Positions 16,320-55,658 of a DNA stretch of 64,000 nt are shown here, piece after piece. A model generated the notes under the pieces. It saw only the letters and a list, made by a program, of their open reading frames with translations, was not told the DNA's origin and ran no database searches. Numbering within the stretch: position 1 is the first letter of the stretch; the number at the start of each line of letters is the position of its first letter. Position numbers and translations under genes: made by a program. This DNA is from Fibrobacter sp. UWB5 (GTDB lineage Bacteria; Fibrobacterota; Fibrobacteria; Fibrobacterales; Fibrobacteraceae): the NCBI RefSeq assembly GCF_002210295.1, contig NZ_MWQH01000005.1, positions 1 through 64,000 of the forward strand. Direction: 5' to 3'.

Positions 16320-17006
16320 ATGAAAATCGAGAAGAAAATCGTCAAAAACAGCGCGAAGCTAAGCCTTGCCGCCAAGAGCGCCATTGCCGCCTCGTTCGGT
16401 ATTGCGGCCGTTGCATTGACTGCTTGCGAAGAAAGTGGCGATGTTGCAGCACCGGACCCGACCGATCTTGAGAAGCCTGAAACAGGGGCTCCCGAAACCG
16501 AGTCTCCCAGCAGCTCTAGCGTTGTCGATATTCCTCTGAGCCACGAGACCCTCAGCAGTTCGGCAGTTGAAGCGCTGTCGTCTGCAGCAGAACCAGATTT
16601 TCCGCCTCAAGCTGGAATCATTCTTCCTGACGAACAATACGTAGAATCCAGTTCTTCTTCCGAAGTCAAGCCCCTGAGCAGTTCTTCTTACGATGAACCG
16701 TATCCGCCTCCTGAAGCAGGCGTTATCGAAGCTCCCGATGAAAGCGACTTCGAAAGCAGTTCTTCAAGCGAAGTGGAAGCACAAAGCAGTTCCGCTGAAG
16801 AACCGGAGCCGCTTCCAGGCGACCCGATTATAGAAGAAAGTTCTTCGAGCGAAGTAGAACAGCCCTCCAGCTCGTCCGTCGATATACATGAAGTATGCCC
16901 GGACAACGACCCGTTCTGCATCCAGGTTCACATGTGTAACAACGAAGATGGCTGCATGGTCGCAAGCATGGTATCCACTTACGAACGATTCGACACCGCC
17001 GGATGA
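16320..17006 (+). CDS. Ser/Glu-rich lipoprotein with Cys-rich C-terminus; candidate substrate of the adjacent radical SAM enzyme
   Basis: 228 residues, function unknown. A signal peptide ends in a lipobox LTAC, with lipid Cys at C36. The middle (about 50-190) is a low-complexity linker with repeated blocks of PPxAGxI, an acidic stretch, then ESSSSSEV; the block occurs about three times. The last 36 residues hold four cysteines (C193, C200, C206, C212) spaced 6, 5 and 5 apart. Its TGA stop overlaps the ATG of the next gene (ATGA), so the two are translationally coupled. Seen: coupling, lipobox, repeats. Inferred: it is the target or partner of the radical SAM protein. Alternatively a plain surface lipoprotein with a spacer linker. 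Confidence 0.7.
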   Translation: MKIEKKIVKNSAKLSLAAKSAIAASFGIAAVALTACEESGDVAAPDPTDLEKPETGAPETESPSSSSVVDIPLSHETLSSSAVEALSSAAEPDFPPQAGIILPDEQYVESSSSSEVKPLSSSSYDEPYPPPEAGVIEAPDESDFESSSSSEVEAQSSSAEEPEPLPGDPIIEESSSSEVEQPSSSSVDIHEVCPDNDPFCIQVHMCNNEDGCMVASMVSTYERFDTAG

Positions 17007-18094
17007 ATTTAGTTCTATGCCTTACGGAACAGTGCAACTTGCGCTGTTCCTATTGTTATTACAAGGACACGCAATCTGCCCGTCATAACGTGATGGACGA
17101 CGAAACGCTCGAGCAGGCAATTCGCATGGGGCTAGAACGTAGCCTGTTTTTCAGGCAGACTTATTTGAACATCACTTTTTTCGGCGGAGAACCGTTACTG
17201 CGCAAAGACGCCATTTTTAAGGGCGTAAACATCGCCAAAGCTTTCGTTGCTGAGGCCATAGACAAAGGCGAAGCGCCAAGCAACTTCAAGCTCAACTTTG
17301 CAGTAAACACCAACGGTACGCTCTTTGACGACTCTTTCTTTGATTATTGCGAGCGAGAGCATTTTCGCATTTACCTGTCGCTCGACGGTCCGGAATACCA
17401 CCACGACATTGCGCGCCGTACCGTAAACAACGGCGGCAGTTTCAAGGACATCGAGAAATACATTCCGCGATTCGTAAAGCTAGGCGCAGTCGCCTTAAGC
17501 ACCGTGACACGCGCCCACATCGAGACCCTTGCCGAAAGCGTGAAGTGGTTACACGAACAAGGATTCAGGAGCCTTACCACAAGCGTCGACTTTGATGGCA
17601 AATGGAGCGGTGAAGACTTTGACAGGCTCGCCTTACAATACCAGAAGATGGCCTTGTACTGGAAGGAATGCCGCGAAAAAGGCGACAAGATGTTCCTGGG
17701 CACGATTCAGGACAAAGTAAAATTATACCTTGCGAATTTGCGGTACAGACAATATTCCTGCCACGTATACAACGGGGCAATTGGAGTCGCGACAAACGGC
17801 AACATGTTCCCGTGCACCAGGTTCATCACCTCAAACGAGAATCCGCCTTACTTACAAGGTAACGTCTTTACCGGATTTAACGAAGAAGCCTGCGAACAAA
17901 TTAGACAGTTCCTGGACAGCGACAAAAAGGAATGCGAAGGTTGCGAAATTCGCTACCGCTGTTGCGCGCACGAATGCGCCTGCACTTCTTTTTACAGTAC
18001 GGGTACGATTGAGGGCGTATCGCCTGAAGTCTGCACGCACGAACGCATGCTCGCAGAGCTCTGTGATAATCTAATGATTAAAAACTTGGATTAG
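17003..18094 (+). CDS. Radical SAM protein with SPASM-type C-terminal cluster domain (putative peptide/protein maturase)
   Basis: 363 residues. The radical SAM cluster motif CX3CX2C is at C11, C15, C18. GGEPLL and the NTNGT strand fit the SAM barrel. The C-terminal third has many cysteines (SCHVYNG...FPC, then CEGCEIRYRCC, CAC and final Cys residues), as in SPASM proteins that carry auxiliary [4Fe-4S] clusters and modify peptides, and in anaerobic sulfatase-maturating enzymes. Coupled by ATGA overlap to the upstream lipoprotein gene. No sulfatase, protease or peptide transporter is adjacent. Named Fibrobacter families such as the FibroRumin maturase exist; membership is untested. Confidence 0.88.
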   Translation: MNLVLCLTEQCNLRCSYCYYKDTQSARHNVMDDETLEQAIRMGLERSLFFRQTYLNITFFGGEPLLRKDAIFKGVNIAKAFVAEAIDKGEAPSNFKLNFAVNTNGTLFDDSFFDYCEREHFRIYLSLDGPEYHHDIARRTVNNGGSFKDIEKYIPRFVKLGAVALSTVTRAHIETLAESVKWLHEQGFRSLTTSVDFDGKWSGEDFDRLALQYQKMALYWKECREKGDKMFLGTIQDKVKLYLANLRYRQYSCHVYNGAIGVATNGNMFPCTRFITSNENPPYLQGNVFTGFNEEACEQIRQFLDSDKKECEGCEIRYRCCAHECACTSFYSTGTIEGVSPEVCTHERMLAELCDNLMIKNLD

Positions 18095-21473: not shown

Positions 21474-22310
21474 ATGAAACCGATTATCGAATATTCAGAC
21501 TTTCGCCAGTATCTGCTGGACTACTACGAGGAGCGCAAGCGCATTTCCGCTTTCTCGTGGCGCGAATTCTCGAAAGTCGCAGGCTTCACCTCTTCTTCTT
21601 ATATGAAGGTGGTGTGCGACGGAAAAAGCAAGCTCAGCAAGATTGGTGTGGAACGCGTTGCCGCGGCAATAGGACTCACGGGGTTTGAGCTCGACTATTT
21701 CCGCGCGATGGTCAAGTTCGGCCAGGCCGCAAACGAAGAAACCAAGAAAGCCGCGTACCGCGACATGCTCGCGATTGCGAAGGTGCATAAGGTGCGCGTG
21801 TTGGAAGGGGACTTGTTCGCCTATTACGACACTTGGCGCAACCCCATGATGCGTGAACTTGCCCCGCTGATGCCCGGCGCTACCCCGGGCGAGATGGCCA
21901 AGATGTGCTACGCCGAGACATCGGCTCAGGAAGTCCGCGAATCGCTTGATTTTTTGACTAGGACCGGGCTCCTCAAGAAAGAAAAGGACGGCGCCTTCAA
22001 ACAGTCCGAAACGTCTGTGAGCGGCACCCCTGATGCAACCAGGCTTGCACTCCGCGGAATGCACCGCCAGATGGCACAGCTCGCCGCTCCGGCTCTTGAG
22101 TTGCCGGCAACCGAACGCAACTTCAGCGGCGTCACCATGGGAGTGTCTCGCGAGAGCTATGACCGCATTGTCAAGGCACTGGACGATTGCCGCCGACAGA
22201 TTATCGCAATTGCTGCCGAAGACAAAGGCATCGAACAGGTTTACCGTTTGAATTTACAATTATTCCCGCTTACTAAAAGCGTAAAGGAGAGCAAAAATGA
22301 AGAAGCTTAA
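21474..22310 (+). CDS. TIGR02147/DUF4423-like protein (Fibrobacter paralogous family), possible regulator
   Basis: 278 residues. It begins KPIIEYSDFRQYLLDYYEERKR, then FSWREFSKVAGFTSSSYMKVVCDGKSKLS, a helix-turn-helix-like segment at about 28-60. This opening is characteristic of a family expanded in Fibrobacter; recognised from memory. ATG 21474 was chosen for its AGGA site; an upstream in-frame start overlaps the promoter. It overlaps the following lipoprotein gene by 14 nt. With the iterons upstream, autoregulation and control of the lipoprotein are inferred. Biochemical role unknown. Confidence 0.75.
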   Translation: MKPIIEYSDFRQYLLDYYEERKRISAFSWREFSKVAGFTSSSYMKVVCDGKSKLSKIGVERVAAAIGLTGFELDYFRAMVKFGQAANEETKKAAYRDMLAIAKVHKVRVLEGDLFAYYDTWRNPMMRELAPLMPGATPGEMAKMCYAETSAQEVRESLDFLTRTGLLKKEKDGAFKQSETSVSGTPDATRLALRGMHRQMAQLAAPALELPATERNFSGVTMGVSRESYDRIVKALDDCRRQIIAIAAEDKGIEQVYRLNLQLFPLTKSVKESKNEEA

Positions 22311-23862
22311 CATTTGCATCGCGGGCGCACTCGCCCTTCTCTGCACCAACTGCGGAGACTCCAATAGCGTAAACGTTTCGGGCACCTCCGAAGACGTGAA
22401 CGAAATCGCCGACAAGGGTTCCTCCAGCTCGGGCACTCCCGGGGCTGAATCTTCGAGCAGCATCAATGACCAGAAGAATTCCTCTAGTAGCGTAGACGAT
22501 CAGCAGACCAATTCCTCGTCAAGCGGAGACGTTCAGACTCCGCAGATTAACGACGGCTCGCTGGAAGCCTACCTGCAGCAATACGGTCTCGAAACCAAGC
22601 ACCGTTTCGACAAGGCCGTGCTCGCATTTAACAAGAGCGAAATGGTTTCCAGGACTCCGGCTATGGATGGCTCCACAAATTCCACAGAATTTGATGGCGA
22701 AGGTGTCAGCAAGTTTGTACAGCAGAACATCGGCGCTATAGAAGCGCTGTTCCCGAAGGCCGCCGCCAAGTACGCCGACCTGGTTGAAGCCACCAAGAAC
22801 GGCACGAACGAATGTTCGCTCTACTCCTTCAACCTCTACGGTAACGAAAAGTATGCCGGCCACGTGCTGGAATACGTCTCCCCCGACACCATGAAGGTCG
22901 TGGATATCGAAGCCAAGAACTGCGAAGAAAATACGAGCAACCAGATTGTTCGATTCCTGTTCAGCTACTGCGGTGACGTGAGCGAGGAACCGGTCGTTGA
23001 ACGCACCACGGCAAAGTCGGACATCGCCAAGGAAAACTGCCCTGCCAGCAAGACCGACGACGAGTGGGTCAACGTGATTGACTCGAAGGATATCGTCACG
23101 AGTTCCTCTTCGGAAACACCGAGTTCTTCTGCCGCAGAAAATCCGGCATCCAGCTCCAGCAAGGAAATCGAGACATGCCAGCATATTTCCGATTACGACG
23201 GAATGACCGCAAACGGCAACTGCGACAGCAAAACAGACACAAGCATTGTTATCGACTGCGTAACCGGCGAAGAAATGAAATGTGTTGACAATTATTGGAC
23301 ACGCGCAAATGCTTGCGCACCGGGCAGCGACTGTGACGGTGACGGCATTCCTGACGGAGTTCGCAGAATTGACTTGGAGCCCTGCGATACCGACACATTG
23401 CTCTATTTCTACGGACGCAGTTACCAGTGCATTGAAAACAAGTGGGTGTACCTGCCGCCTCCGGGCCCGGACAGCACCTATTCCCAGGCACGTAACGTCT
23501 CGGTACTGCCCCGCCAGGGAATGGCCGTAACCCCGCGTGTCGTGATAGTAAAGAATGCCGACGGAACCGTTTCTATCCGCGATGACGGTTACTACGTCAC
23601 AAACAACTTCGTTATCAAAGATGTTTACACAGAACTTTCTGGTGATACCATCATCGTAGACGTCATCTACCCTGACGGAGCAAACCTACACTCCTACCAG
23701 ATTAGCGCGCTCACGTTTACCGTCAGCAAGGAATACACAAACGTCAAATACCTGAGGTACAAAGACGACGATCGTGTAAAGCCTTTGTTCGAGGAAGACG
23801 AATTGCTCCCCTGCGCAAGCAGTTCTACTTGCCAGGAGTGCGGAGAAGGCCTCGATTGTTAA
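22297..23862 (+). CDS. Ser-linker lipoprotein, function unknown
   Basis: 521 residues. A lipobox LCTNC places the lipid Cys at about residue 19. Four SSSS linkers follow within the first 80 residues and another Ser-rich linker occurs near 270-290. The region 85-260 is a globular domain of unknown type. The region after the second linker has several Cys pairs and a GSDCDGDGIPDG motif like a thrombospondin type 3/calcium loop. The chain ends in a Cys cluster (CASSSTCQECGEGLDC). Its start overlaps the TIGR02147 gene and AAAGGAGAG lies inside that gene, so the two are one operon. Probably surface-exposed. Confidence 0.75.
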   Translation: MKKLNICIAGALALLCTNCGDSNSVNVSGTSEDVNEIADKGSSSSGTPGAESSSSINDQKNSSSSVDDQQTNSSSSGDVQTPQINDGSLEAYLQQYGLETKHRFDKAVLAFNKSEMVSRTPAMDGSTNSTEFDGEGVSKFVQQNIGAIEALFPKAAAKYADLVEATKNGTNECSLYSFNLYGNEKYAGHVLEYVSPDTMKVVDIEAKNCEENTSNQIVRFLFSYCGDVSEEPVVERTTAKSDIAKENCPASKTDDEWVNVIDSKDIVTSSSSETPSSSAAENPASSSSKEIETCQHISDYDGMTANGNCDSKTDTSIVIDCVTGEEMKCVDNYWTRANACAPGSDCDGDGIPDGVRRIDLEPCDTDTLLYFYGRSYQCIENKWVYLPPPGPDSTYSQARNVSVLPRQGMAVTPRVVIVKNADGTVSIRDDGYYVTNNFVIKDVYTELSGDTIIVDVIYPDGANLHSYQISALTFTVSKEYTNVKYLRYKDDDRVKPLFEEDELLPCASSSTCQECGEGLDC

Positions 23863-54317: not shown

Positions 54318-55658
54318 TTACTTGAGTGGCACAATCCACATCGGAATCGGTTCCACCGTAGCAATCTTTTCGGCCTTTTCCGTCTTCGGGTCATAACGGA
54401 AGTAGGCATTGCCGTCTTCTTCGGTAGACACAGCAAAAATCACGGTACCGTCTTCATCAATGTACTTACCATAGCTAGCCCAGCTAGAAGAGTAACCAAT
54501 CGGGAGAGCCTTCATGGTCTTCTTGGCAAGATCGATTTCCACCGGCTTGCAAGTGTTATTGTGGTAGCTATCCATATCAGTCCAAACCTGCTGCAGGTCC
54601 ACCATCACGTTCAAGAATGCATAAACCTTAGTTCCATTCGCGTAGGTAGTGGGGCTCAGGTACTTGAAGTTACCTTTCTTGGTAACATCATCGATAGCGA
54701 CTTCCTTGGTTACGAGCCAAGCATAATCCTTATCGAACTTGGTTTCACCCACCTTGATACGCAGGAAGCCATCAACCTGGCCGGGAGCATAGCCCCAGGA
54801 GGCGTTACTGTAGCAGTAAATGTAGCCATCAGCAACAATGAACGCCTGATTCTGAGAGTCGTCAAGAGAGCCCACAGCAGCAACGCGGTCATCTTCGGCC
54901 ACGGCAATCACGGAATCCTTTTCAACGTCAATGATAGCGACTTGAGCCGTATTACCGGTAGCATAGTCGCTCACGTTCTGCAAGAGGCCAACGTAGAGGC
55001 GACCATCCACAATCACGCCAGTACCCGGGCTCACCACGAGAGCGTCATCACCCTTGTACTTAGAAAGGTCTATTGCGCCGGTGGTTTCCATGGTCTTCGG
55101 ATTGATGATAAGGAGCGAATCAAGCATGCCGCCCAAATAGGCCTTTTCTTCGTTCACAAAGTAAATGTGGTTCGCCCATACGCCCGGGAGCGTGAGTTCA
55201 GCAGACTTTTTACCAATCTTGTTGTTGGCATCGAGGCTGTAGCGGGCAATGGAACCGATGTCAAGGTCTGCAATGAATAGAGATCCATCGTAATAAACGA
55301 CACCTGCGCGGGTGCCGACTTCAATATAGTCCTTGCCCAAATCACCGGTGTGGTCCAGAGACATGGTGCCAATGAACATCGTTTCGCCCGAAGCGATCGA
55401 TGTTGCGAATTCACGCTTGTATTCGCCCTTTTCTTCTTTCTTAGAACTGCTAGAGACGTCCTTGCTATCGCTAGATTTAGCTTCGCTACTGCTAGACTTG
55501 CCCTTACTGCTGCTAGATTTGTCCTTGCTGTCGCCGGACTTTTCAGTCGAAGAGGAAGAGAGTTCCTTGTCGTTGTCAGAGCTTGCCGAAGAGGAATCGT
55601 CGCAAGCAACCAGCATACCGAGCGACACGATGAGCGCCGCCAAGAATCTTTTTTTCAT
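54318..55658 (-). CDS. Surface lipoprotein with beta-propeller-like domain (XusB/DUF4374-like)
   Basis: 446 residues. Lipobox LVAC with lipid Cys C19. A low-complexity Ser/Lys/Asp linker (about 20-75) is followed by repeated blade-like units (e.g. GVVYYDGSLFIADLD, GVIVDGRLYVGLLQ, AFIVADGYIYCYS) typical of a beta-propeller. In Bacteroides, XusB is a DUF4374 propeller lipoprotein that captures xenosiderophores for the TonB receptor XusA; the TonB gene here is the next one. Family assignment is by eye. Regulated through three GGAGT elements upstream. Confidence 0.75.
   Translation of the reverse strand: MKKRFLAALIVSLGMLVACDDSSSASSDNDKELSSSSTEKSGDSKDKSSSSKGKSSSSEAKSSDSKDVSSSSKKEEKGEYKREFATSIASGETMFIGTMSLDHTGDLGKDYIEVGTRAGVVYYDGSLFIADLDIGSIARYSLDANNKIGKKSAELTLPGVWANHIYFVNEEKAYLGGMLDSLLIINPKTMETTGAIDLSKYKGDDALVVSPGTGVIVDGRLYVGLLQNVSDYATGNTAQVAIIDVEKDSVIAVAEDDRVAAVGSLDDSQNQAFIVADGYIYCYSNASWGYAPGQVDGFLRIKVGETKFDKDYAWLVTKEVAIDDVTKKGNFKYLSPTTYANGTKVYAFLNVMVDLQQVWTDMDSYHNNTCKPVEIDLAKKTMKALPIGYSSSWASYGKYIDEDGTVIFAVSTEEDGNAYFRYDPKTEKAEKIATVEPIPMWIVPLK

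Follow-up and report, generated by a model that had tools for sequence, protein, structure and literature searches.

A lipoprotein gene and the gene for a radical SAM/SPASM enzyme lie joined in the 64,000-nucleotide stretch of Fibrobacter DNA analysed here (the window), and this pair is real and specific to the genus Fibrobacter. Judging from their association, the two genes probably form a RiPP-like protein-modification unit, in which the SPASM enzyme modifies the lipoprotein encoded just before it. The family of such two-gene units is found across the genus and is apparently undescribed.

Results

Structure and surroundings of the gene pair

The upstream gene (16320..17006, + strand), identified by ORF calling, encodes a Ser/Glu-rich lipoprotein of 228 aa, the putative substrate, with homologues 5′ of every enzyme of the clade to which the window enzyme belongs (clade A, below). 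The downstream gene (17003..18094, + strand) encodes a radical SAM/SPASM enzyme of 363 aa without an N-terminal RRE domain. Both reading frames had been reported in the initial annotation of this DNA together with the ATGA that they share (16320-17006 / 17003-18094), and all are present; exactly this 4-base overlap is kept in 47 of the 56 clade A loci counted. From our own reading of the ORFs, we take the genes 5′ of the pair to be ilvB and ilvN, and those 3′ of it to be a small gene on the opposite strand and genes for a CobW-type protein and TatC. Many of the clade A loci having enough flank are likewise adjoined by ilvBN. No dedicated peptidase or exporter adjoins the lipoprotein–enzyme pair, as had also been noted, and the source genome (3.36 Mb) holds a single copy of the enzyme family.

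Motifs, predicted fold and profile scores of the enzyme

The CX3CX2C cluster motif (C11, C15 and C18; 17033..17056, + strand) and the Cys-rich SPASM end (C253, C271, C311, C314, C320, C325, C327 and C344; 17759..18034, + strand) described earlier are both present, and their cysteines are invariant in 67 homologues. The spacings C253-x12-G266-x4-C271 and C311-x2-C314-x5-C320-x4-C325, with C327 and C344, place the protein in the radical SAM/SPASM superfamily; against the pattern used (CX9-15GX4C ... CX2CX5CX3C ... C) it has one x4 spacing, not x3. The Pfam Radical_SAM model gives 58.7 bits, and the best profile is that of PapB (NF047865), which matches over the whole length with 208.2 bits against a cut-off of 340. 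An AlphaFold model (pLDDT 90.5) has CteB as its nearest solved fold (TM 0.79) and anSME as its second (TM 0.78). As modelled, the fold of the enzyme is, like its profile, that of the peptide-modifying SPASM maturases. In anSME the residue after a SPASM Cys is the catalytic Asp; in the window enzyme Thr272 follows this Cys and aligns with the Asp of 4k36, and the family consensus here is Ser or Thr.

Pairing of enzyme and lipoprotein in clade A

Fibrobacter alone, in most of its genomes searched, yielded homologues of the enzyme with about 44% identity or more, and matches outside the genus were weak and generic to radical SAM proteins (best 2e-24, 28% identity). A quick maximum-likelihood tree of 86 enzymes gave supported groups, namely A (n=41, including the window enzyme), A′ (n=3), B (n=18) and C with D (n=24). 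At all 52 clade A loci fetched, which hold about 41 distinct enzymes, a lipoprotein tail ends directly at the start of the enzyme. The tail carries a signature, which in the window consists of the codons for S-M-V-S-T-Y-E-R-F-D (16965..16994, + strand). We scanned 61 whole genomes with a degenerate DNA pattern that encodes SM-V/I-S/T-T-F/Y-E/D-x-x-D; it picked up 32 sites across 37 Fibrobacter genomes, with 0 control matches and 0 outside Fibrobacter. On comparison with the enzyme positions, 32/32 of these sites lie just 5′ of a clade A enzyme on the same strand. The enzyme–substrate pairing put forward in the initial annotation is thus well supported. To the question raised there, whether homologues always sit next to lipoproteins with the same four-Cys tail, the answer for clade A is yes as far as the lipoprotein is concerned; the number of tail cysteines, however, varies.

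The number of tandem lipoproteins per clade A locus ranges from one to four, with up to four consecutively at L055 and L045, and two clade A enzymes occur within one locus at L037 and at L057. These tandem arrangements suggest local duplication of substrates and enzymes.

Leader, repeats and conserved tail of the lipoprotein

The N-terminal leader or signal peptide (MKIEKKIV...LTAC; 16320..16427, + strand) contains an n-region, a hydrophobic stretch and the lipobox LTAC, as expected of a bacterial lipoprotein, and ends in Cys36, the predicted site of lipidation. The lipobox had been pointed out before, and its type is common to the window protein and its homologues. Among 64 clade A lipoproteins the start reads M-[K/N]-I-E-K, the M-K-I-E-K of the window being invariant or nearly so. 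All 64 also carry S-M-[V/I]-[S/T]-T-[F/Y/L]-[E/D]-x-x-D no more than 13 residues from the C-terminus; that S, M and the last T never vary is in part a product of selection, as the proteins had been gathered via SM[VIL][ST]T.

Three PPxAG / PLPGDP blocks with Ser runs between them (16602..16853, + strand; residues ~95, 130 and 163, each followed by a Ser run) form a spacer that may also hold a secondary recognition or modification motif. AG[IVDE] is commoner than in composition-matched shuffles (48 against 7.7 in clade A, 34 against 2.3 in clade B), in a comparison that ignores common descent and repeat expansion. The three repeats are present as described, but their Ser runs are not a distinctive feature and were dropped as such: they also occur in other exported-looking proteins of the window (for example 22297-23862 and 54318-55658) and are generic in Fibrobacter. 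The first of these (+ strand; MKKLNICIAGALALLCTNCG...) is another Ser-rich, lipoprotein-like protein that has neither AG[IVDE] blocks nor the tail motif.

The earlier reading was to be doubted if repeats and cysteines varied freely between strains, and this is half the case. The repeats and tail vary strongly, but in clade A the N-terminal leader MKIEKKKV stays constant and so, within the tail, does the core h-x-h-C-x-D ... SMV[ST]T[FY]ExxD.

Tail cysteines

The four evenly spaced cysteines noted in the window tail (193, 200, 206 and 212) are present, but as a set they are neither conserved nor distinctive. Homologous clade A tails carry 2, 4 or 6, and a conserved four-Cys tail was accordingly rejected. 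A single cysteine is near-invariant, within an h-x-h-C pattern in 61/64 clade A lipoproteins, and the residue at +2 from it is D, E or N in 60 of the 61 matched tails; a second lies either a few residues N-terminal to SM or upstream of the core Cys. CX3[DE] is found at least once in 31/64 clade A partners and in 0/17 of clade B; in the window Cys193 and Cys206 sit in CX3D.

The last 60 residues contain an even number of cysteines in 34/34 distinct tails (19 at less than about 50% identity), and counts over the whole mature protein are odd in 5/64. Even numbers suggest disulphides rather than thioethers, as a sign and not a proof because related tails inherit the pattern and are not fully independent. 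With one near-invariant Cys, an even number in total and few or none in the partners of sister clades, the four cysteines do not stand as the conserved target that had been proposed.

Exchange of the C-terminal cassette

The four cysteines of the window lie in a C-terminal cassette (16816..17003, + strand) that is exchangeable, as seen from block replacement between close strains and from tail Ka. When the DNA of loci L049 and L006 is compared, the last ~55 lipoprotein codons are 34-58% identical and the coding flanks 95-100%, and L034 and L006 share their tails at 98-100% identity. Between close strains the enzyme is 92-95% identical and IlvN 100%. Median Ka rises from 0.011 in the signal segment to 0.13 in the body and 0.49 in the tail, with 0.034 for the enzyme; Ka/Ks is 0.23 for the whole lipoprotein (close strains) and 0.05 for both the signal segment and the enzyme. 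From the drop in identity and the contrast in Ka, it follows that the lipoprotein tip is replaced between strains as a block and that the signal peptide is frozen.

Partners of the sister clades

Tail type tracks enzyme clade (SMV[ST]T[FY]E in A, SM[PA][ST]..GH...P in A′, no SM tail in B). Clade A′ lipoproteins share the clade A leader and end in SM[PA][ST]x[IV]GH...P, and those of clade B start MDIRKxKVEKNREWS..., 10/17 of them having no Cys after the lipobox.

No lipoprotein was seen adjoining the enzyme in clades C and D. Instead, the 24 clade C/D enzymes checked are each followed, at a distance of 14-38 bp, by a partner gene for a Lys-rich protein of 69-183 aa with 0 or 1 Cys. Since Ka/Ks is 0.14-0.34 for closer pairs, these partners behave as real genes. 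Ten of their products matched no family in Pfam and NCBIfam, and the AlphaFold model of one clade C member is largely disordered (pLDDT 57.6). G[ILVM]P occurs 5 times in clade C partners, against 0.5 in shuffles.

Given the small partner gene at every clade C/D enzyme and its Ka/Ks, a small fast-evolving partner is general for the enzyme family and comes in two arrangements. Because clade B lipoproteins mostly lack tail Cys and C/D partners are nearly Cys-free, an obligatory Cys-thioether chemistry for the whole family is unlikely.

Clade C/D units were seen at L062, L065, L080-L082, L084-L088 and L090-L101 (for example L091:2398-2946:- and L093:2659-2931:-), and clade D1 partners have two conserved GG sites. 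In several genomes a hemB-like and a hemL-like gene appear to flank the clade D2 unit (L087, L090, L095, L098 and L100). Chromosomal position seems to be particular to each clade, D2 lying by the hem-like genes and A by ilvBN. Distant radical SAM proteins at 26-29% identity to the window enzyme were seen at L086 (G026:C32), L105 (G030:C30) and L107 (G047:C62), in frames of about 700 aa, one of them near a clade C unit.

Discussion

A model for the lipoprotein–enzyme unit

The window pair has the features expected of a RiPP system, namely a precursor encoded beside the enzyme, a conserved N-terminus and a hypervariable, exchanged tail. In the mechanism that we propose, translational coupling, which is seen in the gene structure, would produce lipoprotein and enzyme together. 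The enzyme, in which a separate N-terminal RRE domain is absent, would recognise as its leader the signal-peptide n-region, with its invariant MKIEKKKV, and would modify a residue in the C-terminal segment while this is in the cytoplasm. The fixed part of that segment is h-x-h-C-x-[D/E/N] ... S-M-V-[ST]-T-[FY]-E-x-x-D, and its invariant tail motif could be for docking instead of being the modified site. To judge by the lipobox, export would be via Sec, with signal peptidase II cutting off the leader and Cys36 becoming lipidated, a route that would make a dedicated peptidase or exporter unneeded. Once exported, the tail cysteines, being even in number, may pair as disulphides, and the Ser-rich spacer would keep the tail off the membrane, a cell-surface location being assumed. 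Selection may favour differences between strains in the variable tail region, whose cassettes are swapped, as would be expected if this region is in contact with competitors, phage or other changing partners.

What the enzyme might do to its partner can be approached through the nearest profile, which belongs to PapB. A ranthipeptide-like thioether between the core Cys and the acidic residue two positions on (C-x-D), at -2 Da per link, fits clade A best by sequence: D, E or N stands at that position in nearly all matched tails, two of the four window cysteines lie in CX3D, and PapB reportedly tolerates spacings of n=0-6 in Cys-Xn-Asp (PMC9413430). Even so, we consider this chemistry rather doubtful, since the enzyme falls short of the PapB cut-off, only about half of the clade A proteins have CX3[DE], most clade B, C and D partners are without Cys, and single thioethers would leave the even parity unexplained. 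Related enzymes using Cys-free partners would be explained if the Gly motif blocks (AGI, AGIP, GDPI and GMP), loosely common to the partners of several clades, were a shared modification site and the tail served for docking only. The enrichment in clades A and B, and of G[ILVM]P in clade C, speaks for such a site, but AG[IVDE] is present in only 28/64 clade A proteins, clade D1 has no enrichment, and the shuffles take no account of shared ancestry or repeat expansion; a Gly motif common to all partners is only partly supported, and the reading is improbable.

Oxidation of the invariant Ser of S-M-[V/P/A]-[S/T] to an aldehyde, of the formylglycine type that anSME carries out on C/S-x-P/A-x-R, is very unlikely. 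Clade A tails do conserve the Ser, the SM[PA][ST] tails of clade A′ resemble the anSME motif and anSME is the second-best fold, yet Thr272 takes the place of the anSME Asp (Ser/Thr in the family consensus), the tail motif lacks the anSME Arg, no sulfatase adjoins the pair, clade B has no such motif, and the sulfatase maturase model (TIGR03942) gives only 88.7 bits against 349. Finally, the genes might merely share an operon, with a structural or antigenic lipoprotein and an enzyme acting on something else. Ser-rich lipoproteins are indeed common in Fibrobacter, but the exclusive linkage of tail and enzyme, a tail type that diverges along with the enzyme clade, and the partner found at every complete locus checked make this quite improbable. 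Modification of the lipoprotein by its neighbouring enzyme is the reading we prefer. We would tentatively extend it, as a possibility held with reserve, to a genus-wide SPASM maturase family in which cytosolic Lys-rich proteins and lipid-anchored proteins have replaced each other as substrates. In the lipoprotein branch the signal peptide would also be the RiPP leader, the modified tip would be exchanged between strains as a cassette, and non-thioether chemistry would yield a membrane-anchored, strain-specific display protein.

Most known radical SAM modification concerns small peptides, from which the leader is cut off and the product released. Here the likely substrate is a lipoprotein of >200 residues that would stay on the cell, and an ordinary signal peptide would serve as leader. 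If true, this would be a cheap route for rumen Fibrobacter to put unusual chemistry on the envelope, and tip exchange between strains suggests that the protein acts where the cell meets rivals, phage or its surroundings. Some 86 natural enzyme–partner pairs with six partner types make the substrate rules of an RRE-less SPASM enzyme directly testable.

Relation to known systems

The window system is a SPASM maturase with an adjacent precursor, unusual in its putative lipoprotein substrate, the exchanged tip and the switch of partner within the family. PapA/PapB (NF047865) resembles it in its SPASM enzyme, the best match over the whole length, and in the Cys closely followed by Asp of clade A partners. 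Identity with PapB was rejected by the curated cut-off, and the partner, in contrast to PapA, is a >200-aa lipoprotein without six CX3D motifs, the repeated CX3D/E of PapB-type substrates not being a feature of a family in which many partners are Cys-free. CteB, the SCIFF maturase (TIGR03974), and anSME (TIGR03942) are alike in fold and cluster layout, but the window enzyme is far under both profile cut-offs, there is no SCIFF peptide, and the anSME catalytic Asp is replaced by Thr.

Bufferins, RiPPs modified by MNIO enzymes, have Sec or lipoprotein signal peptides, and this export signal is believed to take part in recognition; lipoproteins are predicted for about 16% of the Buf2 bufferins (PMC12452194). 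They resemble our proposal in the role of an N-terminal export signal in recognition, but the enzyme is a multinuclear iron oxidase and the precursor unrelated. A literature search on Fibrobacter radical SAM RiPPs, and on TIGR04133 and TIGR04134 by accession, found no relevant paper in the collection available.

The FibroRumin maturases (TIGR04136), SPASM enzymes named for Fibrobacter and Ruminococcus, had been suggested for comparison in the initial annotation; the window enzyme scores 38.7 bits against a cut-off of 400, and this identity was rejected. TIGR04133 (rSAM_w_lipo) is like the window pair in that a radical SAM protein lies beside Ser-rich lipoproteins, and it too occurs in Fibrobacter. 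As an identity for the enzyme it was also rejected, the model not being among the best 25 for the window enzyme and the window locus not among the matches listed over the cut-off of 425. The source genome has a TIGR04133 member with 620 bits at G000:C2:267274-268323, separate from the window locus. Unlike those of clade A, TIGR04133 lipoproteins (L108) have neither the MKIEKKKV leader nor the SMVTTFE tail. In the relative L108 the TIGR04133 enzyme adjoins two lipoproteins that each have many Cys, and one is also Ser-rich.
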